From Microbacterium faecale (GTDB taxonomy: Bacteria > Actinomycetota > Actinomycetes > Actinomycetales > Microbacteriaceae): DNA of 64,000 bases. The notes below the pieces were generated by a model, which saw only the letters and a list, made by a program, of their open reading frames with translations, was not told the origin of the DNA and made no database searches. The number at the start of each line of letters is the position of its first letter. Positions within the stretch are counted from its first letter, which is position 1. Where the stretch lies: assembly GCF_014640975.1 (NCBI RefSeq), contig NZ_BMHO01000001.1, positions 754,166 to 818,165 on the forward strand, written 5' to 3'. The position numbers and the translations under genes were made by a program. Below are positions 11,847-60,977 of the stretch, one piece after another.

Positions 11847-11923
11847 GCGCGCCTCCCTCAGATCGGCGGTGGCTCCATTTTGTCGGATAAAGCGCCGAGC
11901 GGTGGGACCCCGGGCCGGGTAGC

Positions 11924-13088: not shown

Positions 13089-13922
13089 GTGAGCAGACAA
13101 CAGTTCGGAACGTACGGCGTGTGGCTGGCCGAGCGGACCTGGGTGCCCGGCACCGCCGCGGTCGCTGAGCGCCTCGGCTACCGCACCCTCTGGATCGGCG
13201 GTTCTCCCGCGGCCGAGCTCGAGAGCGTCGAGGCCGTGCTGAACGAGACCGAGAGCGTCACCGTCGCGACGGGCATCGTCAACATCTGGAACGCGGATCC
13301 GGTCGAGGTCGCCGCCTCTTACCTGCGGCTTGAAGACGCCCACCCAGGGCGGTTCGTACTCGGCATCGGATCGGGCCACCGGGAGGCGACGCCGGAGCGC
13401 GTCCGCCCGCTCGCGGCGATGCGCGCCTACCTCGATACGCTCGACGCCGAGGGCGTGCCGACTGACGCGCGCCTGCTCGCGGCGCTCGGCGACAAGACGC
13501 TGGCGCTCGCCGCCGAGCGGTCGCTCGGGGCGCACCCGTACCTGACGACTCCCGCGCACACGAAGCACGCTCGCGGGATCCTCGGTGATGCTGTGCTCGC
13601 GCCTGAGCTGAAGGTGTCACTCGCAGCCGACGCCGACACCGCGCGCGAGACCGCGCGGGCCTACCTCGCGCGATACTTCGGCCTCGACAATTACACGGGC
13701 ACGCTGAAGCGGTTCGGGTTCGACGACGCCGCGTTCGTCGGCGGCGGCACGGACGAACTCGTCGACGTCGTCGCCGCGAACCCTACGGCCGATATCGCGG
13801 CGGCCGCACTGCGCGCCCACCTCGACGCCGGTGCCGACCACATCGCGGTCCAGCCCATCGGCAGTGACGTCCTCGGAGACCTCGAGCGCGTCGCCGACAG
13901 CCTCGGCCTCACCGACGCTTAG
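13089..13922 (+). CDS. LLM-class F420-dependent oxidoreductase
   Basis: A 277-residue luciferase-like protein. It resembles the actinobacterial subgroup with a short barrel: FGTYGVWLAERTWVPGTAAVAERLGYRTLWIGGSP, described here in two parts, is its start, followed by ATGIVNIWNADPVEVAASY, GRFVLGIGSGHRE, and the C-terminal GADHIAVQPIG. F420 use is inferred from family and from the F420 genes in this window; the substrate is unknown. The GTG at 13089 has a strong GAGGGAGG site about seven bases upstream. It is followed at once by the 72-bp repeat array, which separates it from a convergent ABC exporter operon. Confidence 0.8.
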   Translation: MSRQQFGTYGVWLAERTWVPGTAAVAERLGYRTLWIGGSPAAELESVEAVLNETESVTVATGIVNIWNADPVEVAASYLRLEDAHPGRFVLGIGSGHREATPERVRPLAAMRAYLDTLDAEGVPTDARLLAALGDKTLALAAERSLGAHPYLTTPAHTKHARGILGDAVLAPELKVSLAADADTARETARAYLARYFGLDNYTGTLKRFGFDDAAFVGGGTDELVDVVAANPTADIAAAALRAHLDAGADHIAVQPIGSDVLGDLERVADSLGLTDA

Positions 13923-45988: not shown

Positions 45989-47767
45989 CTACCGGGGCAG
46001 GGCGGCTGAAGTGTCGTCGAGGTCGAGCGCTGCGGTGAGGTCGCGGTCGAGGGCGAGAAGCGCCTCGCGCCCGATGCCCGCGCGTCCGGCGATCGACATC
46101 AGCGTTGCTGCCGGGGGCAGCTCGACCAGCTCGGAGTCGACGAGCCCGGGCGCGTGGCGCCGCACGACGTCGCGGACCCGGGGATCCTGCAGCGCTTGGA
46201 GCAGCGGGGTCTCGAGAACGTCCGCCGCGACGCACTCGTCCGTCCGCGGGCGCGGATCCGTCTGCGCGAGCACGCGGTTGCGGTGGGCACGCGCAAGCAG
46301 ATGCTCAGTCGTGACGGGGCCATCTGCAGGAAGTCCCAGCCGTTCGAACTGACTCGACGGAGCGTCGTTCCGGCGCATCGCCTCGACGAGGAGGCTCGCC
46401 ATGCGCAGTTCGACGTCCTCGTCGACGATCGGATCCCCCTGGTCCGGATCTGTCGCGAGGTCGAACAGTTGCGTGCCCTGCTGCCACGAACCGAGCCACG
46501 ACGTCGCCACTGCCACGCGCATGGTGCGCAGGCCCTTCGTGAACGAGAACGGCTCGGCCGGCTCCCAGTCGCGGAGTTCGTCAGGGGAGAAGCGCCAGCG
46601 CATGTGCGTCGGGATGAGCGTGAACTCTTCGAGAGGAGCGCCCTCCGCCGTGGCAGCCGAGCGCATGTACACGTAGCGTCCGTCCGTGATGTTGACGTGG
46701 TCGCCGTGTTTGCCGAACAGGGCGGTCTGCGGCTGCGGCACGTCGGTCAGGGAGCGACCTTCCATGTCCGGCGTCGCCTCGAGCTCGAAGAAGTCGAGCA
46801 GCGTCGCAGGAATGTCGATCGTCCGTGCGACGCGCTCGTCGCGCTCTCCGCGACGCTGCGTCCGCGGGTCCCACAGGAACATCGGGAGGTGAACGAGTTC
46901 GTTGTACCAGGGCTGTGTCGACTTCGCCCACCAGCCGCGTTCGCCGAGCATGTACCCATGGTCGGTGTTCACGATGAGCATCGTGTCGTCCCACAGTCCG
47001 TGCTCATCCATGGCGTCGAGCACGCGGCCGAGCGAGTAGTCGCACATCTCGAGCAGGGCGAGATACGACTCACGCGCCTGGCCGACCTCCGTCTCTGCCT
47101 CCGTGACGTGGCGGTACGGCGGCCAGTCGAACGTCTCGCCGTCCGTGATGCCGCCCCGCTCGCGGAAGCGCTCGGCCGCGAAGAACGGCTCGTGCGGATC
47201 GAACAGCTCGAGCTGGAGCATCCAGCGATCGGCGTCGGCGTTCGTCTCGATGAACTCGATTCCCGCATCGACCGTCCGCGTCTGGACGTGGTCGGCTTCC
47301 GTCGCCATGTATGAGCGGTTGACCTGGTCCTGCGTGCGCATGCGGGCGATCGGGTTCTGCCGAGGGTCCGTGGTTCCCACGGCGCCCTTCCAAGGGTCGC
47401 CCTCCTGTCCGCGGAAGAACTCCCACGTGCTGTAGCGCGTGTGGTAGGTCGCCCCGCCGTCCTCCCAGTAGTGCTGGTGGTCACTCGCCAGATGGGTGTG
47501 AACCCCCGCGCGTCCCAGCATCTCGGGAACCGAATCGTCGAACGGCTCGAGCGGGCCCCAGCTGCGATGCAGGAAGTTCGTGCGAGCGGTGTGCATCTCG
47601 CGTCGCGCGGGCATGCACGGCATGGATCCCGCGTAGAAGTTCTCGAACGCGACCGTGTGCTTGGCGAGTCGCGCGAAGTTCGGGAATCGCGATGCGTCGC
47701 CGGCGTATGGCGGGATCATGCGCCTGTTCAGGCTGTCGAACATGAGGACGATCGCTCGCATCGTCAT
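45989..47767 (-). CDS. Sulfatase family protein (second of overlapping pair)
   Basis: A 592-residue formylglycine sulfatase. MRAIVLMFDSLNRRM provides the first metal Asp (D11), though the usual second Asp is Ser; C51-M-P-A-R55 (PCMPARREM) is the CxPxR signature; NTDHGYMLGERGWWAKS carries the Asp-His pair. The C-terminal about 100 residues (ASSLVEAMRRNDAPSSQFERLGL...) are an extra helical region beyond the usual domain. No signal peptide. The ATG at 47767 overlaps the stop of the upstream sulfatase by 4 bases, so the two are co-translated. Substrate unknown; choice between carbohydrate and aryl sulfates is open, although the neighbouring island suggests an imported sulfate ester. Confidence 0.88.
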   Translation of the reverse strand: MTMRAIVLMFDSLNRRMIPPYAGDASRFPNFARLAKHTVAFENFYAGSMPCMPARREMHTARTNFLHRSWGPLEPFDDSVPEMLGRAGVHTHLASDHQHYWEDGGATYHTRYSTWEFFRGQEGDPWKGAVGTTDPRQNPIARMRTQDQVNRSYMATEADHVQTRTVDAGIEFIETNADADRWMLQLELFDPHEPFFAAERFRERGGITDGETFDWPPYRHVTEAETEVGQARESYLALLEMCDYSLGRVLDAMDEHGLWDDTMLIVNTDHGYMLGERGWWAKSTQPWYNELVHLPMFLWDPRTQRRGERDERVARTIDIPATLLDFFELEATPDMEGRSLTDVPQPQTALFGKHGDHVNITDGRYVYMRSAATAEGAPLEEFTLIPTHMRWRFSPDELRDWEPAEPFSFTKGLRTMRVAVATSWLGSWQQGTQLFDLATDPDQGDPIVDEDVELRMASLLVEAMRRNDAPSSQFERLGLPADGPVTTEHLLARAHRNRVLAQTDPRPRTDECVAADVLETPLLQALQDPRVRDVVRRHAPGLVDSELVELPPAATLMSIAGRAGIGREALLALDRDLTAALDLDDTSAALPR

Positions 47768-49410
47768 GCCTCCTTCGTCGTCGCAGGAACGCGAACTTCG
47801 GTGCTGGGGTCGTATCCGAGGCGCCAGGCGCCGACCCAGACGTCGGCGTCGCTCGGGGGAGTGAAGAGCCCGCTGAACAGTCGCCAGCGGCGGGCGTCCT
47901 GCTTCGGCGATCCGGACTGCTCTTGGATCCCGGTCAAAGGGGCGGCTTCGGCCGGCGGGTCCGTGGTCCACGCGACCGTCGCACCGGGCGTCGCGCATGT
48001 TGCTGCGAGCTCGGCTCCGGTTGCCGACACCACCGGCGTCGCCGTCGTGTGCCGGGCGCCGCCCGGTCGCCAGCGCTCGAGCAGATCGGACTCGGGCAGC
48101 ACTCCGAGGTCGCCCACGGAGGCGCGCCATTCGTCGAGCGCCGTTCGCAGGCGGTCACGCACCTGTGCGAACTCGGGATCGTCGACGAGGTTGCGCGTCT
48201 CGTGCGGATCCTCGGCGATGTCGTACAGCTCTTCGCGCGGACGACCGGCGGCGACGACGGAGCGTTGGAGGTCTGTGAGGACGTCGGGGCGTTGCCCGAG
48301 CGACAGCTGTTCGCCCTCCTGGTGAACGAGGCGGCGCATCTCTGCCCAGGTCGCGAGGTGGTCCGGATAGTAGTTGTACTGCATCCCCGAACGATCCGGA
48401 TTCATGTTGAGGGTGTAGCGATACCGCACGTCGCGAACGGTACGCACGCAGTCCTCCTGCGCGTCCATCCGGTCCCGTCCGCCGTACGCGTACTCGGCTG
48501 CGCGAAGCGAGTCGCCGTTGGCAGAGAACAGGGGCGTGCCGTGCATGTGCTCGGGGACGTCGAGTCCCGCCGCGGCGAGCATCGTCGGAGCGAGATCCAT
48601 GGTCTGCACGACCTCGTCACGAACCGAGGCGGCCGGGATCCGTCCGGGCCAGCGCACGATCAGCGGGACGCGCAGGCCCGCTTCGTTCGCCCAACGCTTG
48701 GCGCGCGGGAAGCTCGCGCCGTGGTCGCTCCAGAACACGACGAGCGTGTTCTCCGCGAGCCCGTCGGCCTCGAGCTGGTCGAGGATGTCGCCGACCCACG
48801 CGTCCATGGCGCGGATCAGGTCGTAGTAGCGCGCCCAAGCCGTTCTGAACGGCGTCGTGTCCGGGTGATACGGCGGAAACGTCACGTCGTCGGGGTCGCG
48901 ACGCTCGTCGTCTCCGAGCGCCGAGGTCTCGTCGGCGTAGAGCTCATCGCGATAGATGCGCGATTCGTGCGTGATCAGACTGTGGAAGGCGGCGAAGAAG
49001 GGGGCGCCGTCCGGCCGATCCCGCCAGTGCGCGGTGTCGGAGCAGTCGTCGAAGGCCGTCGGTGGCGTCTCGACCTGAAAGTCGGTGAACCAGTTGTTCG
49101 CGGTGTAGTAGCCGGCTTCGCGGAAGTACTCGCTCACGAGGCGCACGTCCTCCGGCGGCACCGCCTTGGTGCGCATGTGCATGGTGCCGATCGAGATCGG
49201 GTGGCAGCCGGTCATGATCGCGGATCGCGCCGGCGCGCACACCGGTGCGGCTGCGAACGCCTGATCGAAGCGCACGCCCTGCGCGGCGAGCTCGTCGATC
49301 CGCGGCGTCGACACCTGCTCGGCATCGGGCCACACGCCCTCATACGCACCGAGATGCGGATTGATGTCGTGCGTCGAGATCCACACGATGTTCGGGGCGG
49401 TGTGAGCCAT
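47764..49410 (-). CDS. Sulfatase family protein (first of overlapping pair)
   Basis: A 548-residue formylglycine sulfatase. NIVWISTHDINPHLGAYEG is typical of the sulfamidase-like subgroup, and C58-A-P-A-R62 (VCAPARSAIMTG) is the CxPxR signature. VVFWSDHGASFPRAKRW gives the metal-binding Asp-His, and ELYDIAEDPHETRNLVDDP the substrate-side loop. The C-terminal stretch (SATGAELAATCATPGATVAWTTD) is a small beta domain. Start: the ATG at 49410 is preferred to 49416 because GGAGG is nine bases from the former but three from the latter. The gene faces away from the ABC-importer/gentisate operon, and their shared 113-base gap holds a promoter with a palindrome. Confidence 0.88.
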   Translation of the reverse strand: MAHTAPNIVWISTHDINPHLGAYEGVWPDAEQVSTPRIDELAAQGVRFDQAFAAAPVCAPARSAIMTGCHPISIGTMHMRTKAVPPEDVRLVSEYFREAGYYTANNWFTDFQVETPPTAFDDCSDTAHWRDRPDGAPFFAAFHSLITHESRIYRDELYADETSALGDDERRDPDDVTFPPYHPDTTPFRTAWARYYDLIRAMDAWVGDILDQLEADGLAENTLVVFWSDHGASFPRAKRWANEAGLRVPLIVRWPGRIPAASVRDEVVQTMDLAPTMLAAAGLDVPEHMHGTPLFSANGDSLRAAEYAYGGRDRMDAQEDCVRTVRDVRYRYTLNMNPDRSGMQYNYYPDHLATWAEMRRLVHQEGEQLSLGQRPDVLTDLQRSVVAAGRPREELYDIAEDPHETRNLVDDPEFAQVRDRLRTALDEWRASVGDLGVLPESDLLERWRPGGARHTTATPVVSATGAELAATCATPGATVAWTTDPPAEAAPLTGIQEQSGSPKQDARRWRLFSGLFTPPSDADVWVGAWRLGYDPSTEVRVPATTKEA

Positions 49411-49435
49411 TGTCATCGTCCTCCGGAAAGCGTCT

Positions 49436-49464
49436 TTGCAAAACCACTGAATGCTATTTAGTAT
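49436..49464 (+). promoter_or_regulatory. Promoter with internal palindrome, importer/gentisate operon
   Basis: TTGCAA (-35, 49436-49441) and TAGTAT (-10, 49459-49464) are 17 bases apart. Between and over them lies ACTGAAT-GCT-ATTTAGT (49446-49462), an inverted repeat with 6 of 7 pairs. The AT-rich patch stands out in GC-rich DNA. A repressor here would control the operon and possibly also the divergent sulfatases. Confidence 0.65.
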
Positions 49465-49523: not shown

Positions 49524-51059
49524 ATGCGAGTTACCCGACTCATCACGATCGCCGGAGCCACGGCGGCTGCCCTCGTGCTCGCCTCGTGCAGCGCGGGCGG
49601 ATCCGGCACATCGGGGTCCGGAGACGGATCCCCGACAAAGCTGACCGTCGGATCCCTCCAGGAGCCGACGAGCTGGGACCCGGCCCAGGCAAACGAGGGG
49701 CACCTGGCACCGATTTATCAGGCGCTGTATGACCCGCTCGTCAAGCGCGAGCCGGACGGGACGCTGAGCCCGATGCTCGCGACCGAATGGGAGACGAGCG
49801 AAGACGGCCTCACGCTGACGTTCACGCTGCGCACCGACGTCACCTTCAATGACGGCACGCCGTTCAACGCCGAGGCCGTCAAGATCAACCTCGAGCACTT
49901 CATGCAGGCGAACGGCCCGATGGCCGGCAACTACTCGACCGTGGACAGCGTCGAGGTCGTCGATGACGAGACCGTCGTGCTCCACCTGTCAGAGCCCGAC
50001 CCGGAGCTCATCTACAGCCTGTCGAATGCGGGCGGGTACATGGCGAGCCCGGCCTCGATCGAAGACGGCACCATCGGCGATGAGCCGGTCGGTTCCGGTC
50101 CTTACCTTCTGGATCAGGCAAACTCCGTCGTCGGATCGAACATCTCGTACGAGCGCAACCCCGACTACTGGGGTGAGGAGCTTCCGTACGACGAGGTCGA
50201 GTTCAAGATCCTCACGGACGAGACCGCCCGTCTCAACGCGCTGACGTCCGGCCAGATCGACGTGGCGTCGCTGAACCGCGCGGCGAGCGCCGTGCAGGCC
50301 GACTCGGCGGACCTCAACACGGAGGAGAGCTTCTCCGTCAACTGGGGCGGTCTGCTCTTCTTCGACCGCAGCGGCGAGCTGCAGCCCGAGTTCGAGGACG
50401 TCCGCGTGCGCGAGGCGCTCGCGATCGCGATCGACAGCGAAGCTCTCGTCGACGTTGGCTGGGAGGGACGAGGCAGCGTGACGACGCAGGTGTGGGGCAG
50501 TGACACCGGGGCGTACGACGACTCGCTCAACGACGCGTACGCCTACGACCCCGAGCGCGCGCGCGAGCTGCTCGAGGAGGCCGGTGCGAGCGACCTCGCG
50601 GTCACGATGCCGCTGAGCCCCGTCTTCGAGCCGGTGATCTACGACGCGATCATCCAGAACTGGCAGGACATCGGCGTCACGGTCGAGCGCCAGCAGTGGG
50701 GTCCAGGCGAGGCGATTCCGTCGATGCAGCAGGGCGAGGTCCCCGTCGCGTTCATGACGCTCGCGCAGCGCTCCGACTGGGGAACGGTCAAGTTCCTCAT
50801 CGCGGAGGACGCCCCGTGGAACGCCCTGGAATCGACCGACCCCGAGCTGCAGGAGCTCATGGATGGGTACCAGGCGGCCTCCGACGAGGACCGGCCGGGG
50901 ATCGCGCGCGAGATGAACGAGTGGATCGTGGACAACTTCTGGTTCGCGCCGATCATGCACCCCGATACGTTCATCTACTGGAACGACGACGTCGACGTCG
51001 AAGTGCAGGTTCAGCAGGCCGTGCCGTCGATCTATAACTTCACCCCCAGCGGAAGCTGA
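49524..51059 (+). CDS. ABC importer substrate-binding lipoprotein (peptide/oligosaccharide family 5)
   Basis: A 511-residue lipoprotein. The signal peptide has lipobox LASC (LITIAGATAAALVLASCSAGG), then a Gly/Ser linker. The rest is the family-5 extracellular solute-binding fold (LTVGSLQEPTSWDPAQANEG, EWETSEDGLTLTFTLRTDVTFNDGTPF, VGSGPYLL, YERNPDYWGEELPYDEV). This fold binds dipeptides, oligopeptides, nickel chelates or glycosides. Context suggests an aromatic conjugate or sugar ester. ATG at 49524 has CAGGAG upstream. It starts a same-strand operon with three transporter genes. A paralogue, cut by the window end, begins at 63471. Confidence 0.9.
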   Translation: MRVTRLITIAGATAAALVLASCSAGGSGTSGSGDGSPTKLTVGSLQEPTSWDPAQANEGHLAPIYQALYDPLVKREPDGTLSPMLATEWETSEDGLTLTFTLRTDVTFNDGTPFNAEAVKINLEHFMQANGPMAGNYSTVDSVEVVDDETVVLHLSEPDPELIYSLSNAGGYMASPASIEDGTIGDEPVGSGPYLLDQANSVVGSNISYERNPDYWGEELPYDEVEFKILTDETARLNALTSGQIDVASLNRAASAVQADSADLNTEESFSVNWGGLLFFDRSGELQPEFEDVRVREALAIAIDSEALVDVGWEGRGSVTTQVWGSDTGAYDDSLNDAYAYDPERARELLEEAGASDLAVTMPLSPVFEPVIYDAIIQNWQDIGVTVERQQWGPGEAIPSMQQGEVPVAFMTLAQRSDWGTVKFLIAEDAPWNALESTDPELQELMDGYQAASDEDRPGIAREMNEWIVDNFWFAPIMHPDTFIYWNDDVDVEVQVQQAVPSIYNFTPSGS

Positions 51060-51112: not shown

Positions 51113-52051
51113 ATGCCCTTCCTCTTGAAGAGACTGATCTCGGCGGTGTCGCTCGTCTTCGGCACGTCGATCATCGTCTTCCTGATGCTGTCGCCCGCGT
51201 TCGACAACATCGCGTTCAACGTGCTCGGCGAGAACGCCAGTCCCGAGCAGGCCGCCGCGCTGAACGCGGAACTCGGGCTCGACCGTCCGGTGCTCGTGCA
51301 GTACGCGAGCTGGCTCGTCTCCGCGTTCACCGGGGACCTCGGCGAGTCGCTCTTCTCGACGCAGACCGTCATGCAGGCGCTGTCGGTGCGAATGCCGGTG
51401 ACGGTGGCGCTCGTGATCATCGTGACGCTTCTCAGTGGCGTTCTCGGCTTCGCGATCGGCGTCGCCGCGGCCGTCACGCGCGGTTGGGTCGACCGCACGC
51501 TCCAGTTCGTCGCCACGCTCGGCGACGCGCTGCCGGCATTCATCATCGCCCTGTTCCTGGTGACGCTCTTCGCGATCCAGCTCGGCTGGTTCCCGGCGAC
51601 CGGCTATACGGCTCCGGGCAGCGACATCGGTGGTTGGGTGCGGACGATGACCCTCCCGGTCGTCGCTCTCACGATCGTCGCGGTCGCCGGCGTCGCGCAG
51701 CAGGTGCGCAGCTCGATGATCCAGACGCTGCGTCTCGACTACGTGCGCACGCTCCGCAGTCGCGGGCTCTCCGAGACGCGCGTGGTGGTCGCCCACGTTC
51801 TGCGCAACGCGTCGACAACGGGGCTCACCGCGCTCGCGGTGCAGGTCGTCGGCATCCTCGGCGGCGCGGTCGTGATCGAGCAGATCTTCGCGCTGCCGGG
51901 TCTCGGCAGCCTCGCGATCGAGGCGTCGTCGCGCACAGACGTCGATGTCGTCCTCGGCGCCGTGCTCGCATACGTCGTCATCGTCGTCATCGTCAATCTG
52001 CTGGTCGACCTCATCGTTGCCTGGCTGAACCCGAAGGTGCGTCTCGCATGA
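51113..52051 (+). CDS. ABC importer permease (DppB type)
   Basis: A 312-residue inner-membrane protein with six hydrophobic helices. Its start (FLLKRLISAVSLVFGTSIIVFLM) is typical of DppB/OppB permeases, and the EAA loop reads TLRLDYVRTLRSRGLSETRVVVAHVLRN. The C-terminal helix ends in VIVNLLVDLIVAWLNPKVRLA, where the family usually has DxxYAxxDPRxR; here the motif reads VDLIVAWLNPKVR. With the next gene it forms the channel for the substrate caught by the binding protein at 49524. ATG at 51113 follows GGAGAACC, and the stop overlaps the next start by 4 bases. Confidence 0.9.
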   Translation: MPFLLKRLISAVSLVFGTSIIVFLMLSPAFDNIAFNVLGENASPEQAAALNAELGLDRPVLVQYASWLVSAFTGDLGESLFSTQTVMQALSVRMPVTVALVIIVTLLSGVLGFAIGVAAAVTRGWVDRTLQFVATLGDALPAFIIALFLVTLFAIQLGWFPATGYTAPGSDIGGWVRTMTLPVVALTIVAVAGVAQQVRSSMIQTLRLDYVRTLRSRGLSETRVVVAHVLRNASTTGLTALAVQVVGILGGAVVIEQIFALPGLGSLAIEASSRTDVDVVLGAVLAYVVIVVIVNLLVDLIVAWLNPKVRLA

Positions 52052-53805
52052 GTCAGACAACATCCCTCGTCGCGGCGGCGCGCGCCAAGCGCGATGGTGC
52101 CGTCGGGCGATTCCTGCGGAATCCGCTCGGAGTCGTCGCCGCCGTCATCGTCGTGCTCGTCATCATCGCCGCGGCGATCGCCCCGTTGCTCCCTCTGCCC
52201 GATCCCAGCCTCTCCGTGCTGCGCGACGCGATGCAGCCCCCGAGCGCCGAGCATCTGCTGGGGACGGACAGTTCCGGGCGCGATGTCCTCAGCCGCCTGC
52301 TCTGGGGAGGACAGGTCAACCTCCTCGGTGCGGCCCTCGCCGTGGCGATCGCGCTGATCGTCGGCCTGCCGACCGGCCTCATCGCCGGATATTTCGGCGG
52401 CCCATTCGACGCCGTGGCGAACTGGTTCAACAACCTCAACATGGCGATGCCCGGAATCGTCATCCTGCTGGCCGTGCGCGCCGTCGCCGGTCCGTCGGTC
52501 TGGGTGTCGATGGCCGTGTTCGGCGTGCTTCTGGCGCCGTCGGTCTTCCGCATCGTGCGTGCGGCCGTGCAGGCCGTCCGCAACGAGCTGTACGTCGATG
52601 CGGCACGCGTGTCGGGTCTGGGGAACGCGCGCATCATCGGTCGGCACGTGCTGACCGTTGTCCGCGCCCCCGTGATCATTCAGACGGCCAGGCTCGGAAG
52701 CATTGCGATCGCGATCCAGGCCGGGCTCGAGTTCCTCGGCATCGCCGACAGTTCGCTGCCGTCGTGGGGCAGCATGCTCAACGAAGGGTTCCGACGCATC
52801 TTCGTCGACCCCTCTCTCGTCCTGTGGCCGAGCCTCGCGATCGGACTCACGACGATGGGCCTGATCCTCCTCGGCAACGCAATGCGAGACGCGCTCGAGG
52901 ACAGCGGATCCGGTTCGGCGACGAGGGTCGGCCGCACCGAACGCGTCGCGGCAGCTGACGACGACCGATCGCCGCTGCTGTCCGTGCGGGAGCTCGAGGT
53001 CAGCTACGGGACCGGGGACGAGCAGAAGACCGTCGTGCACCGGGTGGACCTCGACGTCCGCCCCGGCGAGGTGCTCGGCCTCGTGGGAGAGTCGGGTTCG
53101 GGGAAGTCGCAGACGGCGTTCTCCGTGCTCGGGCTGCTTCCCGAAGGCGGCTGGGTCTCACGTGGGTCGATCCACTTCGAGGGCACCGAGCTCACCGACG
53201 TCTCCCCGCGCCAGCGTCGTCGTCTGCGCGGAACCGATATCGCATACATTCCGCAGGAGCCGCTCAGCAACCTCGATCCGGCCTATCGGATCGGCCATCA
53301 GCTGACGGAGCCGCTGCGCGCGACGCAGGGGATGTCGCGAGCGGCCGCACGAGAGCGCGCCCTGAGCCTGCTTGAGCGCGTGGGGATCCCCGATCCCGAG
53401 GCGACGTTCCGCGCGTATCCGCACGAGATCTCGGGTGGGATGGCGCAGCGCGTGCTCATCGCGGGTGCAGTCGCCGGGAAGCCGAAGCTGCTCATCGCCG
53501 ACGAACCGACGACGGCCCTCGACGTCACCGTGCAAGCCGAGGTCCTCGACCTGCTCCGCGACCTGCAGCACGAGAACGAGATGGCGGTGCTCCTCGTGAC
53601 GCACAACTTCGGGGTCGTCGCCGACATCTGCGACCGCGTCGCCGTGATGAAGGCCGGGCGCATCGTCGAGACGAACGCGGTGCAGGAGATCCTCGAATCG
53701 CCGCAGGACGACTACACGCGCACGCTTCTCGGATCGATGCTGGACGACGGGGACCCCGTCCGTGTCTACGCCGGCGAGGACACAGACGAAGGAGCGCACT
53801 CATGA
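52048..53805 (+). CDS. ABC importer permease-ATPase fusion (DppC-DppD)
   Basis: A 585-residue fused protein. Residues 1-290 are a DppC-type permease (FLRNPLGVVAAVIVVLVIIAA, LGTDSSGRDVLSRLLWGG, and an EAA loop ELYVDAARVSGLGNARIIGRHVL); residues from about 315 are a DppD-type ATPase with Walker A GESGSGKS (347-354), signature EISGGMAQRV, Walker B LLIADEPTTALD and switch His in LLVTHNFGVV. A linker of about 25 residues joins them. Permease and ATPase are normally separate; the fusion occurs in some actinobacterial systems and fixes their ratio. It overlaps both neighbours by 4 bases. Confidence 0.9.
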   Translation: MSQTTSLVAAARAKRDGAVGRFLRNPLGVVAAVIVVLVIIAAAIAPLLPLPDPSLSVLRDAMQPPSAEHLLGTDSSGRDVLSRLLWGGQVNLLGAALAVAIALIVGLPTGLIAGYFGGPFDAVANWFNNLNMAMPGIVILLAVRAVAGPSVWVSMAVFGVLLAPSVFRIVRAAVQAVRNELYVDAARVSGLGNARIIGRHVLTVVRAPVIIQTARLGSIAIAIQAGLEFLGIADSSLPSWGSMLNEGFRRIFVDPSLVLWPSLAIGLTTMGLILLGNAMRDALEDSGSGSATRVGRTERVAAADDDRSPLLSVRELEVSYGTGDEQKTVVHRVDLDVRPGEVLGLVGESGSGKSQTAFSVLGLLPEGGWVSRGSIHFEGTELTDVSPRQRRRLRGTDIAYIPQEPLSNLDPAYRIGHQLTEPLRATQGMSRAAARERALSLLERVGIPDPEATFRAYPHEISGGMAQRVLIAGAVAGKPKLLIADEPTTALDVTVQAEVLDLLRDLQHENEMAVLLVTHNFGVVADICDRVAVMKAGRIVETNAVQEILESPQDDYTRTLLGSMLDDGDPVRVYAGEDTDEGAHS

Positions 53806-54644
53806 AAGCTCGGGAATCTCTGCTGAACGTCGACGACCTCGAGGTCGTGTACAAGGGGCGCGGGGGCAAGACGTTCCAGGCGCTGAAGAGCGTGTCACTG
53901 GACATCCGTCCCGGTGAGACCCTCGGTCTCGTCGGCGAGTCCGGTTCGGGGAAGACGACGATCGGGCGCGCGATCCTCGGGTTGGTCCCGGTGAACTCGG
54001 GACGCATCGCCTTCGAGGGGCGCGAGATCACGCAGCTCAAGCAGCGCGAGCGTCGCGAGCTCGCGAAGGACATCCAGGTGGTGTTCCAGGATCCGTACAC
54101 GTCGCTCAACCCGTCGATGACCGTGGCCGATATCCTCGCCGAACCGCTGCTCATCCAGGGATGGACGCGGAACGACGCCTACGGGCGCGTCCGAGAGCTC
54201 CTCGATCGGGTGAGTCTGCCCGCCGACGCCTCCAAGCGCCTCCCGCGCGAGTTCTCGGGCGGGCAGCGGCAGCGCGTCGCCATCGCGCGTGCGATCGCCC
54301 TCAAGCCGCGCCTCATCATCTGCGACGAACCCGTCTCGGCTCTTGACCTCACGACGCAGGCTCGCGTGCTCGATCAGCTCATCGAGATCCAGGAGGCGAC
54401 CGGCGTTGCGTACCTCTTCGTCTCGCACGACCTCGGCGTCGTTCGCCACATCAGCCACCGTGTCAGCGTGTTGTACCGTGGCGAGATCGTGGAGCAGGGC
54501 GAGGTCGACCAGGTGACGGCTCGGCCCCAGCACCCCTACACCCAGCGGCTGTTCATGTCGGCCCCCGTCGCCGACGTGTCGCAGCAGCGCATCCGTCGCG
54601 AACAGCGTCGCCTGTTGGCGACGGGAGGAGAGAACGCCCGATGA
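53802..54644 (+). CDS. ABC importer ATPase (DppF type)
   Basis: A 280-residue ATPase that pairs with the DppD half of the fusion protein. It has Walker A GESGSGKTT, the Q-loop FQDPYTSLNPSMTV typical of OppF/DppF, signature EFSGGQRQRV, Walker B LIICDEPVSALD and LFVSHDLGVV with the switch His. The C-terminal TARPQHPYTQRLFMSAPVAD is the characteristic oligopeptide-importer tail. The ATG at 53802 overlaps the previous stop; the stop overlaps the GH3-TetR gene by 4 bases, so uptake and hydrolase are made together. Confidence 0.93.
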   Translation: MKARESLLNVDDLEVVYKGRGGKTFQALKSVSLDIRPGETLGLVGESGSGKTTIGRAILGLVPVNSGRIAFEGREITQLKQRERRELAKDIQVVFQDPYTSLNPSMTVADILAEPLLIQGWTRNDAYGRVRELLDRVSLPADASKRLPREFSGGQRQRVAIARAIALKPRLIICDEPVSALDLTTQARVLDQLIEIQEATGVAYLFVSHDLGVVRHISHRVSVLYRGEIVEQGEVDQVTARPQHPYTQRLFMSAPVADVSQQRIRREQRRLLATGGENAR

Positions 54645-57121
54645 CCACGATCCCCGCCAGCGTCCGCACAGCGCGGCACACGGATGGCACTGTCTACCGC
54701 GATCTCAACGGCAACGGCGTCATGGACCCGTACGAGGATCCGAGCCGACCCATCGACGAACGCGTCGACGACCTCGTCGGACGCCTGTCTTTGCGCGAGA
54801 AGGCGGGTCTGATGGTGCAGAGTGTCGTCGCCGTGACGACCGACGGCGACATCGACGGAACGCCGATCGTCCCGCGTGACCCGACGGCGCGGGAGCTCGT
54901 CGAGGAACGCTCGGTCACCCACCTCAACGTGCACCGCATCCCCGAGCCGTCCATCATGGCGCGGTGGGTCAACAGCGTGCAGCGCGTCGCCGAGGCGTCC
55001 GGGCACGGCATCCCCGTGACGGTCTCGACGGATCCCCGCCACTCGTTCACGGAGAACTGGGGGGCGTCCTTCTCCTCTGAGTTCATGTCCGCGTGGCCGG
55101 AGCCGCTCGGTTTCGGCGCCCTCGCGGACGAAGATGCGGTGCGCGAGTTCGCCGACATCGCCCGTCGTGAGTACCTGGCCGTCGGCATTCGCACTGCGCT
55201 TCACCCCACGCTCGATCTCGCCACCGAGCCGCGCTGGGCACGTCAGTACAGCACGTTTGGGCAGAACGCCGAGCTGGTCTCTCGTCTGGGCCTCGCGTAC
55301 GTCGACGGCTTCGAAGGCGGAGCGTCACTTTCTTCGAACGGCATCGCCTGCATGGCGAAGCACTTCCCGGGAGGAGGACCGCAGCGCGACGGCGAAGACA
55401 CGCACTTCCCGTACGGCAAGGAGCACGACTATCTCGGGGGGCGCTTCGAGGAGCACCTGGAACCGTTCCGACAGGTGATCGCGCGCGGCGTGCCCGCGAT
55501 CATGCCGGCGTACGGCAAGCCGATGGGCCTCACCCTCGATGGCGAGAAGATCGAAGAGGTCGGTTTCGGCTTCAACCGCCAAATGATCCAGGGCCTGCTC
55601 CGCGAGCAGCTCGGATACGACGGCGTCGTCTGCACCGACTGGGGCCTCGTCACGGAATCGCGGATCCTCGACAAGACCCTGCCGCCGCGTGCGTGGGGCG
55701 TGGAGCACCTCGACGAGGTCGGGCGCGTGAAGAAGATCCTTGACGCGGGCTGCGATCAGCTCGGCGGCGAAGAGGAGCCGGGGTTCATCGTCGAGCTCGT
55801 CGAGAGCGGACAACTGGACGAGGCGCGGCTCGACGAGTCGGTTCGACGCCTGCTGAAGGTGAAGTTCGAACTCGGCCTGTTCGAGAACCCGTACGTGGAC
55901 GAGGTGGCAGCTGCGAAGACGGTCGGCTCCGCCGAGTTCCGGGAGAAGGGCCACCGCGCGCAGGCGCGCTCGATCGTCGTGCTCGAGAGCGGCCGGCCGT
56001 CCGCTCCAACCCTGCCGATCCGCCGCGGCGCTGAGGTGTTCTCCGAGCAGGTCTCCGCTGAGGTGCTCGCCGAGGCAGGGTTGCGCGTCGCCGCGGCGCC
56101 GGAGCAGGCGGACGCGATCATCGTCCGGACCGAGGCTCCGTTCGAACCACGCGACCACTACATGCTCGAGGCGAGCTTCCAAGCCGGCTCGCTGGAGTTC
56201 GCTCCCGAGTTCATCGATCGGGTTCGCTCGCTGAGCGTGCAGGCACCCGTGATCCTCGTCGTGAAGCTCGACCGTCCCGCGATCCTCGAGCCGCTGATGC
56301 CGTACACCAGTGCGCTCGTCGCCGACTTCGGCGCGTCGGATTCGGCCGTGCTGGAAGTGCTGATGGGGCGAACGACCGCCGTCGGCGAGCTGCCGTTCGA
56401 CATCCCGCGCACGATGGCCGCAATCGAGCGCTCGCGCGTCGACGTGCCGGGTGACACAGTGCGGCCGCTGTTCGTCGCGGGTCAGCCGAGCGCACCGGTG
56501 TCACGGCGCGCGGGACGTCGCACCTACTCACAGGGCCGAGAGAGCAAACTCGCCATCCTCGAGACGGCGCTCGACGTCATCGAACGCAAGGGCTACAGCT
56601 CCACCTCGCTGCGCGACATCGCGGCCGAGGTGGGGATGACGCAGGCCGGTCTGCTTCACCACTTCGGCACCAAGGAGAATCTCCTCGTCGAAGTCCTGCG
56701 CCAGCGAGATGTCGTCAACCGGCGCAACCTCACGTCCGATCCCGGCGACGAACCCATGACGTTGCGCACCGCGCGGCACAACGTGGAGGTGCCGGGGCTC
56801 GTGCACCTGTACGTGAGCCTCGAGGCGGCGGCGGCTGACCCGGAGCATCCGGCGCACGAGTTCTTCCTGCGCCGCAACGACATGGTCGCCGGAACGATCC
56901 GCCGTGACATCGAGGCGCGGCAGAACGACGGGAGCTTCCCGGCCGAGGTCGACGCCGCCATGATGGCGCGGGTGCTCCTCGCCCTCTCGGACGGTCTGCA
57001 AGCCGAGTGGGAGATCGACCGAAGCATCGACCTCCCGGGAACAATCGAGTGGCTGTGGAACCAGTTCGCGTCACGAGCGACGGCGACTGACGACGAAGTT
57101 GCCGAGCGGACGCAGGACTGA
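54641..57121 (+). CDS. Glycoside hydrolase family 3 protein fused to a TetR-type regulator
   Basis: An 826-residue fusion. Residues 1-about 610 are a GH3 enzyme: YRDLNGNGVMDPYEDPSRPIDERVDDLVGRLSLREKAGLM at the start, described here as the usual entry motif, KHFPGGGPQRDGEDTHFP, and the nucleophile D333 in GVVCTDWGL. The C-terminal GH3 domain is cut where related enzymes read LFPFGFGL (here VRPLFVAGQPSAP). From about residue 628 a TetR helix-turn-helix follows in the same frame (ESKLAILETALDVIERKGY, DIAAEVGMTQAGLLHHFGTKENLL) with a full ligand-binding domain to the end. No signal peptide. A GTG near 56500 could start the TetR part alone, but no ribosome-binding site is seen there. The gene overlaps the ATPase gene by 4 bases. 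Confidence 0.88.
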   Translation: MTTIPASVRTARHTDGTVYRDLNGNGVMDPYEDPSRPIDERVDDLVGRLSLREKAGLMVQSVVAVTTDGDIDGTPIVPRDPTARELVEERSVTHLNVHRIPEPSIMARWVNSVQRVAEASGHGIPVTVSTDPRHSFTENWGASFSSEFMSAWPEPLGFGALADEDAVREFADIARREYLAVGIRTALHPTLDLATEPRWARQYSTFGQNAELVSRLGLAYVDGFEGGASLSSNGIACMAKHFPGGGPQRDGEDTHFPYGKEHDYLGGRFEEHLEPFRQVIARGVPAIMPAYGKPMGLTLDGEKIEEVGFGFNRQMIQGLLREQLGYDGVVCTDWGLVTESRILDKTLPPRAWGVEHLDEVGRVKKILDAGCDQLGGEEEPGFIVELVESGQLDEARLDESVRRLLKVKFELGLFENPYVDEVAAAKTVGSAEFREKGHRAQARSIVVLESGRPSAPTLPIRRGAEVFSEQVSAEVLAEAGLRVAAAPEQADAIIVRTEAPFEPRDHYMLEASFQAGSLEFAPEFIDRVRSLSVQAPVILVVKLDRPAILEPLMPYTSALVADFGASDSAVLEVLMGRTTAVGELPFDIPRTMAAIERSRVDVPGDTVRPLFVAGQPSAPVSRRAGRRTYSQGRESKLAILETALDVIERKGYSSTSLRDIAAEVGMTQAGLLHHFGTKENLLVEVLRQRDVVNRRNLTSDPGDEPMTLRTARHNVEVPGLVHLYVSLEAAAADPEHPAHEFFLRRNDMVAGTIRRDIEARQNDGSFPAEVDAAMMARVLLALSDGLQAEWEIDRSIDLPGTIEWLWNQFASRATATDDEVAERTQD

Positions 57122-57132
57122 AGGAGGACCAG

Positions 57133-58218
57133 ATGGAGACGATGGACGGACGGGTCGACTCGCCCGAGCTGGAGCAGCTGTACGCCGACTTCGAGGCGAA
57201 CTCGACCGCACCGCTGTGGACGCAGCGCGATGATCTGATGCCGATGACGCCGGCACCGGCCGCGGTTCCGCATGTGTGGCGCTGGTCGAACCTCTACGAC
57301 ATCGCGAAGCGCTCGGGCGACCTCGTACCCGTCGGGCGCGGCGGGGAACGGCGGGCGATCGGCCTGCGTAACCCCGGTCTTCCCGGCACCGCGTACGCGA
57401 CGCCGACGCTGTGGTGCGCGATCCAGTACCTCGGCGGTCACGAGACGGCGCCCGAGCATCGACACAGCCAGAACGCGTTCCGGTTCGTCGTCGAGGGCGA
57501 GGGAGTCTGGACCGTCGTCAATGGCGATCCCGTTCGAATGTCTCGCGGAGACCTCCTGCTCACGCCGGGCTGGAACTTCCACGGTCACCACAACGACACG
57601 GCCGAGCCGATGGCGTGGATCGACGGGCTGGACATTCCGCTGTCGAACTACACGGACGTCGGCTTCTTCGAGTTCGGATCCGACCGCGTCACCGACGAGG
57701 CGTCGCCGGACGTCTCGCGTGCCGAGCGACTCTGGGCGCACCCGGGCCTGCGGCCGCTGTCGGGCATGGAGCAGCGCGTGAGCTCGCCGCTCTCTGCCTA
57801 CCGGTGGGAGCACACCGACGCGGCGCTCGCCGAGCAGCTCGCGCTCGAGGACGAGGGCTACCCGGCCACGGTTGAGCAGGGGCACGCCGCGATCCGGTTC
57901 AGCAACCCGACGACCGGCGGCGACGTCATGCCGACGATCCGATGCGAGTTCCATCGCCTGCGTGAAGGGGCCGTCACGCCCGCGCGTCACGAGGTCGGAT
58001 CCTCGGTGTGGCAGGTGTTCGAGGGGCGCGGCGAGGTCGTCCTGGGTGACGAAACGCATCGCGTCGAGAAGGGGGATCTGTTCGTCGTGCCGAGCTGGGT
58101 GCCCTGGTCGCTCCGGGCCGAGACCGGCTTCGATCTGTTCCGATTCAGCGACGCCCCCGTGATCGAGCGACTCGGCTTCGCCCGCACGTACGTTCCCGAA
58201 CGAGACGGTGTGCGATGA
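57133..58218 (+). CDS. Gentisate 1,2-dioxygenase
   Basis: A 361-residue bicupin Fe(II) dioxygenase that opens the ring of gentisate (2,5-dihydroxybenzoate) to maleylpyruvate. The first cupin has the iron ligands H109 and H111 in EHRHSQNAFRFVVEGEG and a later His in WNFHGHHND; WIDGLDIPL is typical of gentisate enzymes. The second cupin (VWQVFEGRGEVVLGDE) is present. The family's usual length is 340-380. ATG at 57133 follows a strong AAGGAGG site. It is 11 bases after the GH3-TetR stop and overlaps the FAH-type gene by 4 bases, in the middle of the gentisate operon. Confidence 0.93.
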   Translation: METMDGRVDSPELEQLYADFEANSTAPLWTQRDDLMPMTPAPAAVPHVWRWSNLYDIAKRSGDLVPVGRGGERRAIGLRNPGLPGTAYATPTLWCAIQYLGGHETAPEHRHSQNAFRFVVEGEGVWTVVNGDPVRMSRGDLLLTPGWNFHGHHNDTAEPMAWIDGLDIPLSNYTDVGFFEFGSDRVTDEASPDVSRAERLWAHPGLRPLSGMEQRVSSPLSAYRWEHTDAALAEQLALEDEGYPATVEQGHAAIRFSNPTTGGDVMPTIRCEFHRLREGAVTPARHEVGSSVWQVFEGRGEVVLGDETHRVEKGDLFVVPSWVPWSLRAETGFDLFRFSDAPVIERLGFARTYVPERDGVR

Positions 58219-59051
58219 GGCTCGCGACCCTGCGCCACGGAGACGGCACCACGTCGGCCGCGGTCGTCGCGGACGGAATCGCCACGGACGTCGTGGGGGC
58301 CGCGGACGTCGGCGCGCTCCTCGCGGATCCGGAGTGGCGCACGCGCGCGGCTTCGGCCGACGGACAGCAGACCGCGATCGACGGGCTCGCCCCGGAGAAC
58401 TGGGGTGCCGTGATTCCGCGACCGGGCAAGGTCGTGTGTGTCGGCCTCAACTATCGCGAGCACATCCTCGAGATGGGGCGCGAGCTGCCCGCGCATCCGA
58501 CCCTGTTCGCGAAGTTCGGAACGGCGATCACGGGGCCTTACGACGACATCGCGATTCCCGCCCACGCGGCCGATCAGGTCGACTGGGAGGCCGAGCTCGC
58601 CGTCGTGATCGGCGAACGCGTGCGCGACGCGGATCCTGCTGCCGCGGCGGCGGCGATCGCGGGGTACAGCGTGCTCAACGACATCTCGATGCGGGACTTC
58701 CAGAACCGCACGGTGCAGTGGATGCAGGGCAAGAACTTCGAGGCGACGACACCGCTCGGCCCCGTGCTGGTGACAGCGGACGAGTTCGAGCCGGGGCCGA
58801 GCATCCGGTGCGATGTCAATGGCGAGACGATGCAGGACGGGGCGACCGATGACCTCGTGTTCACGCCGGCCGACCTCGTCGCGTACATCTCGGCGATCTT
58901 CACGCTCGAGCCGGGCGATGTGATCGCCACGGGCACACCGGGCGGCGTCGGACATGCACGCACGCCCGCACGGTATCTGGCCGACGGCGACGAGCTGGTC
59001 ACCACGATCGACGGCATCGGCGCGCTGCGCAACCGGATCCGAACGCGCTGA
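58215..59051 (+). CDS. Fumarylpyruvate hydrolase (FAH family)
   Basis: A 278-residue member of the fumarylacetoacetate hydrolase family, which splits fumarylpyruvate to fumarate and pyruvate, the last gentisate-pathway step. The core motifs are VCVGLNYREHILEMG, PTLFAKFGTAITGPYDDI, and the metal ligands in DWEAELAVVIG, with GYSVLNDISMRDFQ and FTPADLVAYISAIFTLEPGDVIATGTPGGVG. It could also act on related acylpyruvates; the neighbours favour fumarylpyruvate. It overlaps gentisate dioxygenase by 4 bases and shares one base with the isomerase gene (TGATG). Confidence 0.9.
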   Translation: MRLATLRHGDGTTSAAVVADGIATDVVGAADVGALLADPEWRTRAASADGQQTAIDGLAPENWGAVIPRPGKVVCVGLNYREHILEMGRELPAHPTLFAKFGTAITGPYDDIAIPAHAADQVDWEAELAVVIGERVRDADPAAAAAAIAGYSVLNDISMRDFQNRTVQWMQGKNFEATTPLGPVLVTADEFEPGPSIRCDVNGETMQDGATDDLVFTPADLVAYISAIFTLEPGDVIATGTPGGVGHARTPARYLADGDELVTTIDGIGALRNRIRTR

Positions 59052-59602
59052 TGGCCGCTCGCACCGACAACGTCGCCGACCCCGCGCTCGCGGCCGAGCT
59101 GCTGCTGGCGCGTCGCGGGCAAGCGTACTTCTCGCGCGTGCTGGGGCAGCTGCCGAACGGCGATCTCGGATCCGAGTCGTTCGTGCCCGGCTGGACGAAC
59201 GCGCGCGTCGTCGCTCACGTGGCGCTCGATGCGCGTGCGACCGCGCACGCGGTCGAGGCGCTGCGCACCCGAGCCTCCGAGCCCGTTCTCGTCGATGCGG
59301 CGGAGCGCATCCGCGACATCGACTTCGCCGCCACGCTGCCGCCCGAAGCGCTCCGAAACCTCTCCGCCCACGCCGCCGTCCACCTGAACGTCGAATGGCG
59401 CGACCTGCCGGCGGAGGTGTGGTCCGAGAAGATCCGCGTGACCGGGAAGCCCCCGATCCTCGCAGCGGACACTGTGTGGAGGCGGTGCAACGAGGTGTGG
59501 ACGAGATCCGTCGATCTTGCCGGCCCTTCCGCGATCCGCGACCTCCCGCGCGACGTGCTCGAGCGACTCCGCGCTCTACCCGAACCGCCACACTGGCTCT
59601 GA
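59051..59602 (+). CDS. Mycothiol-dependent maleylpyruvate isomerase
   Basis: A 183-residue DinB-like helical protein of the mycothiol-dependent maleylpyruvate isomerase family, turning maleylpyruvate into fumarylpyruvate between the two adjacent enzymes. The N-terminal domain has GWTNARVVAHVALDARATAHAV, with the first zinc His, and the AVHLNVEW segment near 115-122 that places the other His and Glu ligands. The protein is shorter than the 240-residue Corynebacterium enzyme, so the small C-terminal domain seems reduced. Its presence implies that the host makes mycothiol, which fits an actinobacterium. Confidence 0.85.
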   Translation: MAARTDNVADPALAAELLLARRGQAYFSRVLGQLPNGDLGSESFVPGWTNARVVAHVALDARATAHAVEALRTRASEPVLVDAAERIRDIDFAATLPPEALRNLSAHAAVHLNVEWRDLPAEVWSEKIRVTGKPPILAADTVWRRCNEVWTRSVDLAGPSAIRDLPRDVLERLRALPEPPHWL

Positions 59603-59619: not shown

Positions 59620-60237
59620 TTGTTCATCGACGCCTCGACTCTCGACGCCGCCTCGACCTACCGCCTGCTCGTGGGGTCGGTCGTGCCACGCCCCATCGCC
59701 TGGGTGACGAGCGGCATCGCACCGCACGCCGTCAACCTCGCGCCGTTCAGCTCCTTCGCGTGGGTCAGCCAACACCCCGCCATGCTGGGCTTCACGGTGA
59801 ATCGGCGGCCGGAGGGCCGCAAGGACACGATCGAGAACATCGAACGCGACGGCGAGTACGTCATCAACGTGGTGACGGATGACATGCTCGAGCCGATGCA
59901 CGCGTCGAGCGAATGGCTGGCCCCCGACCACAGCGAGGTCGAGGCGCAGGATCTGCGGTTGGCGGCCTCGGAACACGTGCGCGTCCCGCGTCTGGCCGAC
60001 GTGAAGGTCAGCATGGAGATGGTGCACGAGCGCACGATCGAATTCAGCCCGACCGGCGGACAGTTCGTCGTCGGGCGCGTCGTGGGATGGCACATCGATG
60101 AAGCCGTGATGACGGACGGACGCATCGACACCGAGCTGCTGCGCCCCGTCGGTCGCCTCGCTGGCCCGCGCTACAGCGGACTCGCTGAGGTCGTGGAGCT
60201 TCCCGCGGTTCCGGGCGGTGCGCCGACGAAGGCGTGA
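59620..60237 (+). CDS. Flavin reductase-like / FMN-binding protein
   Basis: A 205-residue protein of the split-barrel FMN-binding fold (flavin reductase like, DIM6/NTAB). STYRLLVGSVVPRPIAWVTS, NLAPFSSFAWVSQHPAMLGF and GEYVINVV are typical. It would reduce FMN with NAD(P)H and could feed a two-component monooxygenase, for instance a salicylate or hydroxybenzoate hydroxylase upstream of gentisate, but no such oxygenase is in the window. The start is TTG at 59620, decided by an AAGGAG site seven bases upstream. It is the last gene of the operon; the TetR gene faces it. Confidence 0.87.
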   Translation: MFIDASTLDAASTYRLLVGSVVPRPIAWVTSGIAPHAVNLAPFSSFAWVSQHPAMLGFTVNRRPEGRKDTIENIERDGEYVINVVTDDMLEPMHASSEWLAPDHSEVEAQDLRLAASEHVRVPRLADVKVSMEMVHERTIEFSPTGGQFVVGRVVGWHIDEAVMTDGRIDTELLRPVGRLAGPRYSGLAEVVELPAVPGGAPTKA

Positions 60238-60314: not shown

Positions 60315-60887
60315 CTACGCGTCGGGAGAGCGCAGGTCGTCGAGGAGCGTCCGGAGCTCGCCGGCCATGTCGACCGATGGATCCAGGAGGAACTGGGTCT
60401 GCAGGCCGTCAGTCGCGGCAATGAGTGAGGTCGCCGTGCTCGCCGGATCGAAGTTGCTCCGTAGGGATCCGTCGAGCTGAGCCGCGGACAGGGCCGCGGT
60501 GAGAGACGTCCGCAGGCGCTTGTAGCGCTCGGTGAAGAACTCGTGTGCGCGGTGCGACGGGTCCGCCGCCGCGACCGAAAGCTGCGCATACAGCTGCACG
60601 AGGCCGGGCACCTCGGCGTTATGCGAGACGATGCGCAGCAATCCTGCGAGGGGGTCGTCGACAATCAGCGCGGCGTCGACTTCGTCGCGCTTCCGCAGGA
60701 CGGCGGTGAAGAGCTCGTCCTTGCTGTCGAAGTAGTGCAGCAGTCCGGCTTGGCTAAGACCGACGGCGTCCGCTATCTCGCGCACTGACGCGCGCCGGTA
60801 ACCGTGAGTGGCGACGACGTCGAGCGCGACGGACAGGATCTCGTCGCGTTTGGCGATCCCTTTCGCGTAGGCACCCCGTGATGTCAT
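60315..60887 (-). CDS. TetR-family transcriptional regulator
   Basis: A 190-residue regulator. The helix-turn-helix is EILSVALDVVATHGYRRASVREIADAVGLSQAGLLHYFDSKDELF in order, and the rest is the ligand-binding helical domain. The C-terminal segment VPGLVQLYAQLSVAAADPSHRAHEFF closely resembles VPGLVHLYVSLEAAAADPEHPAHEFF of the GH3-TetR fusion, so both belong to one subfamily and may bind similar sites or ligands. It is divergent from the GH3 gene at 60978; the gap holds an inverted repeat suited to control both genes. Confidence 0.9.
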   Translation of the reverse strand: MTSRGAYAKGIAKRDEILSVALDVVATHGYRRASVREIADAVGLSQAGLLHYFDSKDELFTAVLRKRDEVDAALIVDDPLAGLLRIVSHNAEVPGLVQLYAQLSVAAADPSHRAHEFFTERYKRLRTSLTAALSAAQLDGSLRSNFDPASTATSLIAATDGLQTQFLLDPSVDMAGELRTLLDDLRSPDA

Positions 60888-60898
60888 GCGCTCAGCAT

Positions 60899-60945
60899 AA
60901 AACCAAATGCCACTTGTTATCGAAAGTCGAACGGCATACGGTTTT
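60899..60945. promoter_or_regulatory. Operator candidate between divergent tetR and GH3 genes
   Basis: AAAACCAAATGCC (60899-60911) and GGCATACGGTTTT (60933-60945) are complementary at 11 of 13 positions, 21 bases apart. Within lies TTGTTA (60914-60919), and TACGGT (60937-60942) follows 17 bases later, a plausible promoter for the GH3 gene. Binding of the TetR protein here would affect both genes. Confidence 0.6.
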
Positions 60946-60977
60946 GATCATCCCCGCCGCCGATCCGATGGAGAATC

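Follow-up and report, generated by a model that had tools for sequence, protein, structure and literature searches.

A GH3 glycosidase joined in frame to a TetR-family regulator, and its candidate operator, in Microbacterium faecale

The 64,000-nucleotide stretch of Microbacterium faecale DNA analysed here (the window) contains a gene whose single open frame joins a glycosidase of family GH3 to a regulator of the TetR family. It lies in a row of genes on one strand, between those for an importer and a set of gentisate-type genes; a candidate operator is located upstream of the importer. Coordinates are collected in Table 1.

Both halves of the fusion appear complete. The GH3 N-terminal domain (PF00933) scores 126.6 bits against a curated cut-off of 27, and the TetR_N helix-turn-helix (PF00440) 54.1 bits against 24. 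The predicted structure of the fusion aligns with nearly all of the crystal structure 9UL7. A preliminary description of this DNA took the enzyme to be cut short in its C-terminal domain; in both sequence and structure comparison it ends where free-standing relatives and 9UL7 end. D333, named there as the nucleophile, aligns with the nucleophile D415 of the GH3 enzyme SN243, and D333-W334 is invariant in 120 alignment rows. In the same rows G251-E252-D253 is invariant, K240-H241-F242 is at least 90% conserved, and E510 is the sole Glu/Asp within residues 480-530 listed as invariant, which makes it a candidate general acid/base. The predicted structure has nine helices at residues 633-813, forming an all-helical ligand and dimer domain after the helix-turn-helix; this agrees with the full regulator described earlier. 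Known TetR structures (e.g. 3vpr, 4ich) match most of the TetR stretch. The result lists of whole-model fold searches were filled by the GH3 part. The fusion retains both the GH3's own end (PLF.AG) and the N-terminal basic arm of free TetRs (...QGRES...), so only about ten residues are likely to be new linker. As read from the sequence, a complete GH3 with its catalytic aspartate is joined in frame to a complete TetR.

The fusion is conserved. A search with the 826-residue protein covered 5.8 billion proteins; the 7998 candidates sharing most words with the query were scored, 3839 of these matched, and the best 120 were listed. Among those 120 are 28 near-full-length homologues (96-100% query coverage, 64-99% identity), annotated with both GH3 and TetR_N domains. 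When the TetR half alone served as query, against proteins restricted by design to 0.55-1.75 times the length of the fusion, 30 matches were obtained: the 28 fusions, one LacI-TetR protein and a 582-residue fragment of a like fusion. Among the records with this protein are Microbacterium suaedae, M. timonense, Microbacterium spp. and one named Nocardioides sp.; the fusion is also found in a metagenome-assembled genome named Candidatus Agrococcus pullicola. Automatic names in public records call some of these proteins GH3 or TetR. Within the genus, 7 of 366 genomes carry the fusion (G000, G361, G244, G282, G154, G382 and G340), and the in-frame join claimed in the preliminary description is real. 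A survey of the family (398 genomes, 85 genera) gave four matches at E up to 1e-235; two are fusions of the same genus (G000 and G361) and two are unfused GH3 genes of another genus.

The ratio of non-synonymous to synonymous substitution rates (dN/dS) was computed over four pairs, with L023 not included. It is 0.10-0.18 for the GH3 part, 0.02-0.03 for the helix-turn-helix and 0.09-0.17 for the remaining C-terminal TetR. For residues 613-632 it is 0.02-0.05, a value from only 20 codons with synonymous changes near saturation. Purifying selection acts on both halves. Alignment A2 was made without P0118. The Streptomyces protein P0122 (601 residues) has listed Pfam domains that include LacI-type and TetR ones.

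Whether relatives carry the same fusion or two genes, a question raised in the preliminary description, has a mixed answer. Besides the seven fused genomes, the genus includes at least seven in which the related halves are encoded separately, with GH3 before TetR as in the fusion (G294, G358, G164, G015, G109, G220 and G116); this count is a minimum, as only a subset of loci was searched for split pairs. The two genes overlap in every one of these pairs: the TetR gene, from its likely start and in another frame, shares 1 to 8 bases with the end of the GH3 gene. The overlap reads ATGCGTGA in five split loci, with TGA taken as the GH3 stop and ATG as the TetR start; with starts placed in the same way, it is TGATG in G220 and ATGA in G116. 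Measured between two fixed points, one close to the end of GH3 and one in the TetR arm, the junction spans 93 bases in seven of the eight fused loci and 87 in G340. It spans 94 bases in four members of the five-member split clade and 100 in the fifth, G015; it is longer in G220 and G116. The junctions of most fused loci and of four split ones thus differ by one base, and the fusion probably arose from two overlapping genes via a small insertion or deletion.

A joint GH3 and TetR tree unites the fused proteins with five split pairs in a single clade (support 100/99), and the five split pairs stand beside the fused P0027/G340 with modest support (88/78). The approximately unbiased test does not reject a tree constrained to one group of all fused proteins (p-AU 0.198), and this grouping is present in 18% of 200 bootstrap trees. 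The GH3-only tree has a like grouping (support 82), joined by nine further GH3 proteins; it was made by a quick method from 84 rows that left out P0031, L130, L131 and most unfused proteins, L130 and L131 being treated as equivalent to P0005 and P0010. A TetR-only tree gave no firm order among the fused TetRs, the split ones and three others that are unfused. These trees would fit two fusions as well as a single fusion followed by one re-splitting; a single origin of the fusion is neither shown nor rejected.

Two of the split clusters have further features. On either side of the G294 pair (L136, 2306-16621) lie rhamnosidase, apiosidase-like, dihydroxyacetone-kinase-like and isomerase-like genes, with sugar-catabolic genes among them; these surroundings are possibly a plant glycoside and apiose cluster. 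The G116 cluster (L142) has a different strong palindrome before its importer gene, at about 13217-13246 as oriented, and a second TetR relative (38%) further down.

The candidate operator of the fused TetR is an imperfect dyad, ACTGAA-N5-TTTAGT, read upstream of the importer from the window and five relatives. It sits in the 17-base spacer of the inferred promoter and overlaps its TAGTAT. The dyad has one single place in the window, with up to two mismatches allowed. Across the 366 genomes the exact dyad occurs in 14: all seven fused genomes, six of the seven split ones, and G266. In 13 of these 14 it lies at the promoter of the GH3-TetR locus, whether fused or split, and the motif had been read without seven of the 13 (G154, G340, G294, G358, G164, G015 and G109). 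Only one of the 352 others has it, these being the genomes not classed as fused or split among the loci examined; the match, in G266, lies in an 18-kb stretch with weak ABC-ATPase similarity to the cluster, otherwise an unrelated place. In the seventh split genome, G116, the site immediately before the GH3 gene is a perfect palindrome that departs from the motif by one mismatch, and G346 has a degenerate dyad at the same promoter place. The exact dyad is absent from G062, G347, G291 and G007, which have unfused, more distant GH3 genes (three with a TetR about 5 kb upstream), and from two Agreia-like genomes; it was also not found at any of 20 further GH3 loci.

The position of the dyad is also conserved, with TTG starting 10-11 bases before it at 15 of the 16 listed sites (the exception is G116). 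The gene that follows varies. In six fused genomes and in G220 the dyad precedes the importer; in G340 and the five split pairs that group together it precedes the GH3 gene. G154 has two copies, one before an extra sulfatase gene and one before the importer. Since the dyad is kept though the downstream gene differs, the site appears to follow the regulator and not a fixed neighbour. From its sequence and position, this lineage-specific dyad is assigned to the promoter region of the fusion's own operon. The extra sulfatase gene of G154 (L133, 2236-3903) lies between the divergent sulfatase and the importer.

The genes from the importer to the flavin reductase lie close together in one direction, and domain matches on the window genes uphold the operon with importer and gentisate genes given in the preliminary description. 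Two sulfatase genes diverge from it. The importer adjoins six of the seven fused loci (the exception is G340), as do sulfatases. The gentisate set is found at four of the seven (G000, G361, G382 and G340) and is absent from G244, G282 and G154 within 20-kb stretches; gentisate is not a general part of the cluster theme. Downstream of the fused locus of G282 are genes for another sulfatase and for a sulfatase-modifying enzyme. A common theme may be the import of decorated phenolic glycosides, probably from plants, and the stripping of their decorations.

Table 1. Predicted features of the fusion gene and its surroundings in the window.
Feature	Position	Strand	Basis or remarks
Sulfatase, divergent	47764..49416	-	Sulfatase; 29 bases from start to operator
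Inferred promoter, TTGCAA, 17-base spacer, TAGTAT	49436..49464	+	Read from sequence and relatives
Candidate operator of fused TetR, ACTGAA-N5-TTTAGT, imperfect dyad	49446..49462	+	Window, 21 chosen genomes, 366 genus genomes, positions
Solute-binding protein of importer	49524..51059	+	SBP_bac_5; start placed by eye, listed open reading frame from 49410
Importer permease	51113..52051	+	BPD_transp_1
Importer permease fused to ATPase	52048..53805	+	BPD_transp_1, ABC_tran
Importer ATPase, overlaps fusion start	53802..54644	+	ABC_tran, oligo_HPY
GH3-TetR fusion gene	54641..57121	+	826 residues, single open frame; Pfam GH3 and TetR_N
GH3 glycosidase part, complete, two-domain	54641..56482	+	Residues ~1-614; nucleophile D333
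Probable new linker, ~10 residues (615-624)	56483..56512	+	Comparison with split relatives, predicted structure, selection on 613-632
TetR regulator, complete	56513..57118	+	Residues ~625-826; basic arm, helix-turn-helix, ligand and dimer domain
Gentisate 1,2-dioxygenase-like cupin	57133..58218	+	TIGR02272, 257 bits, below cut-off of 442
FAA hydrolase family protein	58215..59051	+	FAA_hydrolase
Mycothiol-dependent maleylpyruvate isomerase-like protein	59051..59602	+	MDMPI_N, TIGR03083
Flavin reductase-like protein	59620..60237	+	Flavin_Reduct

Two gene models in these clusters call for comment. The sulfatase frame listed at 45989-48130 (-) has a 367-base overlap with its neighbour, and relatives match a shorter form from about 47767; this is probably the true start, overlapping the stop of the upstream sulfatase. 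In G382 (L134), the match to gentisate dioxygenase is divided between two frames, in pieces that overlap (about 11125-12197 as oriented), due to either a frameshift or a sequencing error.

Taken together, these features make it probable that the fusion is a bifunctional glycosidase and repressor, which represses its own operon until relieved by an imported glycoside or its aglycone. The fusion would bind ACTGAA-N5-TTTAGT as a TetR dimer and shut the promoter of the operon running from importer through fusion to gentisate genes; the divergent sulfatase genes would probably be shut too. A dyad within the promoter would be expected to block transcription, which is why a repressor is proposed. The ligand may be an imported, probably aromatic, glycoside or the aglycone released by the GH3 part, and its binding in the TetR pocket would lift repression. 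As enzyme and repressor share one chain, every enzyme molecule would also be a repressor. The anatomy of the fusion would by itself give a fixed 1:1 ratio and negative feedback proportional to the enzyme level, with fast shut-off once substrate is gone.

There are a number of points that weigh against this interpretation. The GH3 C-terminal domain PF01915 (Glyco_hydro_3_C) scores 25.6 bits in the window protein, below its curated cut-off of 31; it is annotated in many of the fusion homologues. The role of E510 is one that we infer. As a control, the dyad pattern read backwards matches in 7 of the 366 genomes, at scattered places, and one-mismatch matches to the dyad itself lie away from the locus in G282, G154 and G527. 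Because the genomes are mutually related and belong to the genus that supplied the motif, the 14 of 366 and the counts within it are not independent trials. A generic promoter scan listed no promoter here; TTGCAA/TAGTAT scores 8 of 12 against the consensus, where the threshold is 9. Since gentisate genes are found at only four of the seven fused loci, gentisate is a weak candidate for the inducer. Finally, TetR genes lie a few kb away, upstream or divergent, near several unfused, distant GH3 genes that have no such operator; a TetR near a GH3 is thus not special by itself.

Other explanations of the fusion are less probable. It is conceivable, if doubtful, that the two halves work independently and that their join only fixes co-expression, with no regulatory gain. 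Such a neutral fusion would fit the operator and promoter that are common to fused and split forms, the one-base difference in length between most fused and split junctions, and the possibility that the main split clade nests inside the fused clade; however, the fused state lasts over 64-99% identity though a one-base change could undo it. It is unlikely that the GH3 part acts as a trigger enzyme, in which occupancy or turnover of the active site alters the DNA affinity of the TetR part via the short linker, so that cleavage sets transcription. PutA, which senses proline, is a precedent for a trigger enzyme. The two domains are only about ten residues apart, the stretch 613-632 is constrained, and the fused state is retained over a wide clade. 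On the other hand, the fusion keeps an intact TetR ligand domain under constraint, and its split relatives have the same operator and do without fusion; the TetR N-terminal arm, found in free TetRs too, makes up part of the conserved stretch, and the junction is modelled at low confidence (below 50 at residues 623-631).

Production of a free TetR besides the fusion, by internal initiation or by proteolysis of the linker, is improbable. An in-frame GTG lies between the GH3 end and the first TetR helix at four of the seven fused loci, but the other three (L024, L025 and L026) have no ATG, GTG or TTG there; an internal start was rejected as none is conserved in the alignment. There is next to no chance that a frameshift artefact or recent local deletion has joined two genes. 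Split relatives, which the preliminary description regarded as a sign of such an error, do exist and their genes overlap. They stand beside a conserved fused lineage, and hence point to the source of the fusion and do not reveal an error; an artefact or chance frame is ruled out by the 28 near-full-length homologues, the seven genomes with the fusion, the conservation of the junction and the strength of purifying selection.

The bifunctional glycosidase and repressor proposed here can be compared with known systems. Structure 9UL7 (entry title 'Improved thermostability of a GH3 glycosidase based on its X-ray crystal structure'; the molecule is named beta-glucosidase) is, unlike the fusion, a free-standing GH3 enzyme of 620 residues without a regulator. 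SN243, for which there are crystal structures with glucuronides, belongs to the same family and shares the aligned nucleophile; it is about 34% identical, longer and also without a regulator. The split pairs of the genus have related halves in the same order and the exact or, in G116, one-mismatch operator; they differ in being two overlapping genes in place of one frame.

UidR/GusR is a TetR repressor encoded beside beta-glucuronidase, a glycosidase of a different family, in enterobacteria. The gene order here is similar, with a TetR next to glycosidase and importer genes, which in the case of UidR/GusR are under its control; there the repressor is a separate polypeptide and here it is part of one chain. 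PDB entry 6ayi, named UidR, is a weak sequence match to the TetR part (E 5.3e-5). PutA, BirA, NadR and MocR combine an enzyme fold and a DNA-binding domain in one chain; the fusion differs from these in retaining a whole regulator with its own ligand domain. We know of no enzyme-regulator fusion that joins a glycoside hydrolase to a TetR. No GH3-TetR protein was described in the open-access literature searched, a scope that does not prove that none has been published. The kind of protein is thus known; the GH3-TetR combination and its candidate operator are, as far as we know, new here.

If the fusion works as proposed, it would be a natural single-chain feedback device in which the enzyme is the repressor. 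The likely stages of its formation are visible in one genus, from a TetR gene elsewhere in the cluster through an overlapping pair to the fusion, which would make it a test case for why regulators fuse to enzymes. It may also provide a glycoside-responsive part with a candidate operator. Were cleavage itself to set transcription, this would be, as far as known, the first case of a glycosidase serving as its own transcription factor.

Further GH3 genes with a TetR nearby are found in the window and elsewhere. At 60315-63245, another TetR gene, whose product is 42% identical to the fused TetR, is divergent from a second GH3 gene, with a dyad of their own read by eye between them (about 60899-60945, AAAACC-N2-ATGCC / GGCAT-N2-GGTTTT); this appears to be a parallel, unfused GH3/TetR unit. 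The preliminary description suggested two DNA sites for the fusion. One coincides with the inferred promoter and candidate operator; the other is this second dyad, which differs from ACTGAA-N5-TTTAGT and was rejected as a target of the fusion. It is likely to be the site of the neighbouring second TetR. In G346 a TetR gene is located at the front of the importer operon, and Agreia-like genomes have a different TetR between importer and GH3. The GH3-TetR neighbourhood is a wider pattern; examples of distant unfused GH3 genes with a TetR nearby are L151, L152 and L160, and those of G005, G028, G029, G001 and G042.

The 20 further GH3 loci include those with matches running furthest past the GH3 end through stop codons. 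None of the 20 has a TetR directly downstream; these long matches are run-through and were rejected as further split pairs. Three of the 20 have a TetR about 1.5 to 4 kb upstream of the GH3 gene, 36-44% identical to the second TetR of the window.

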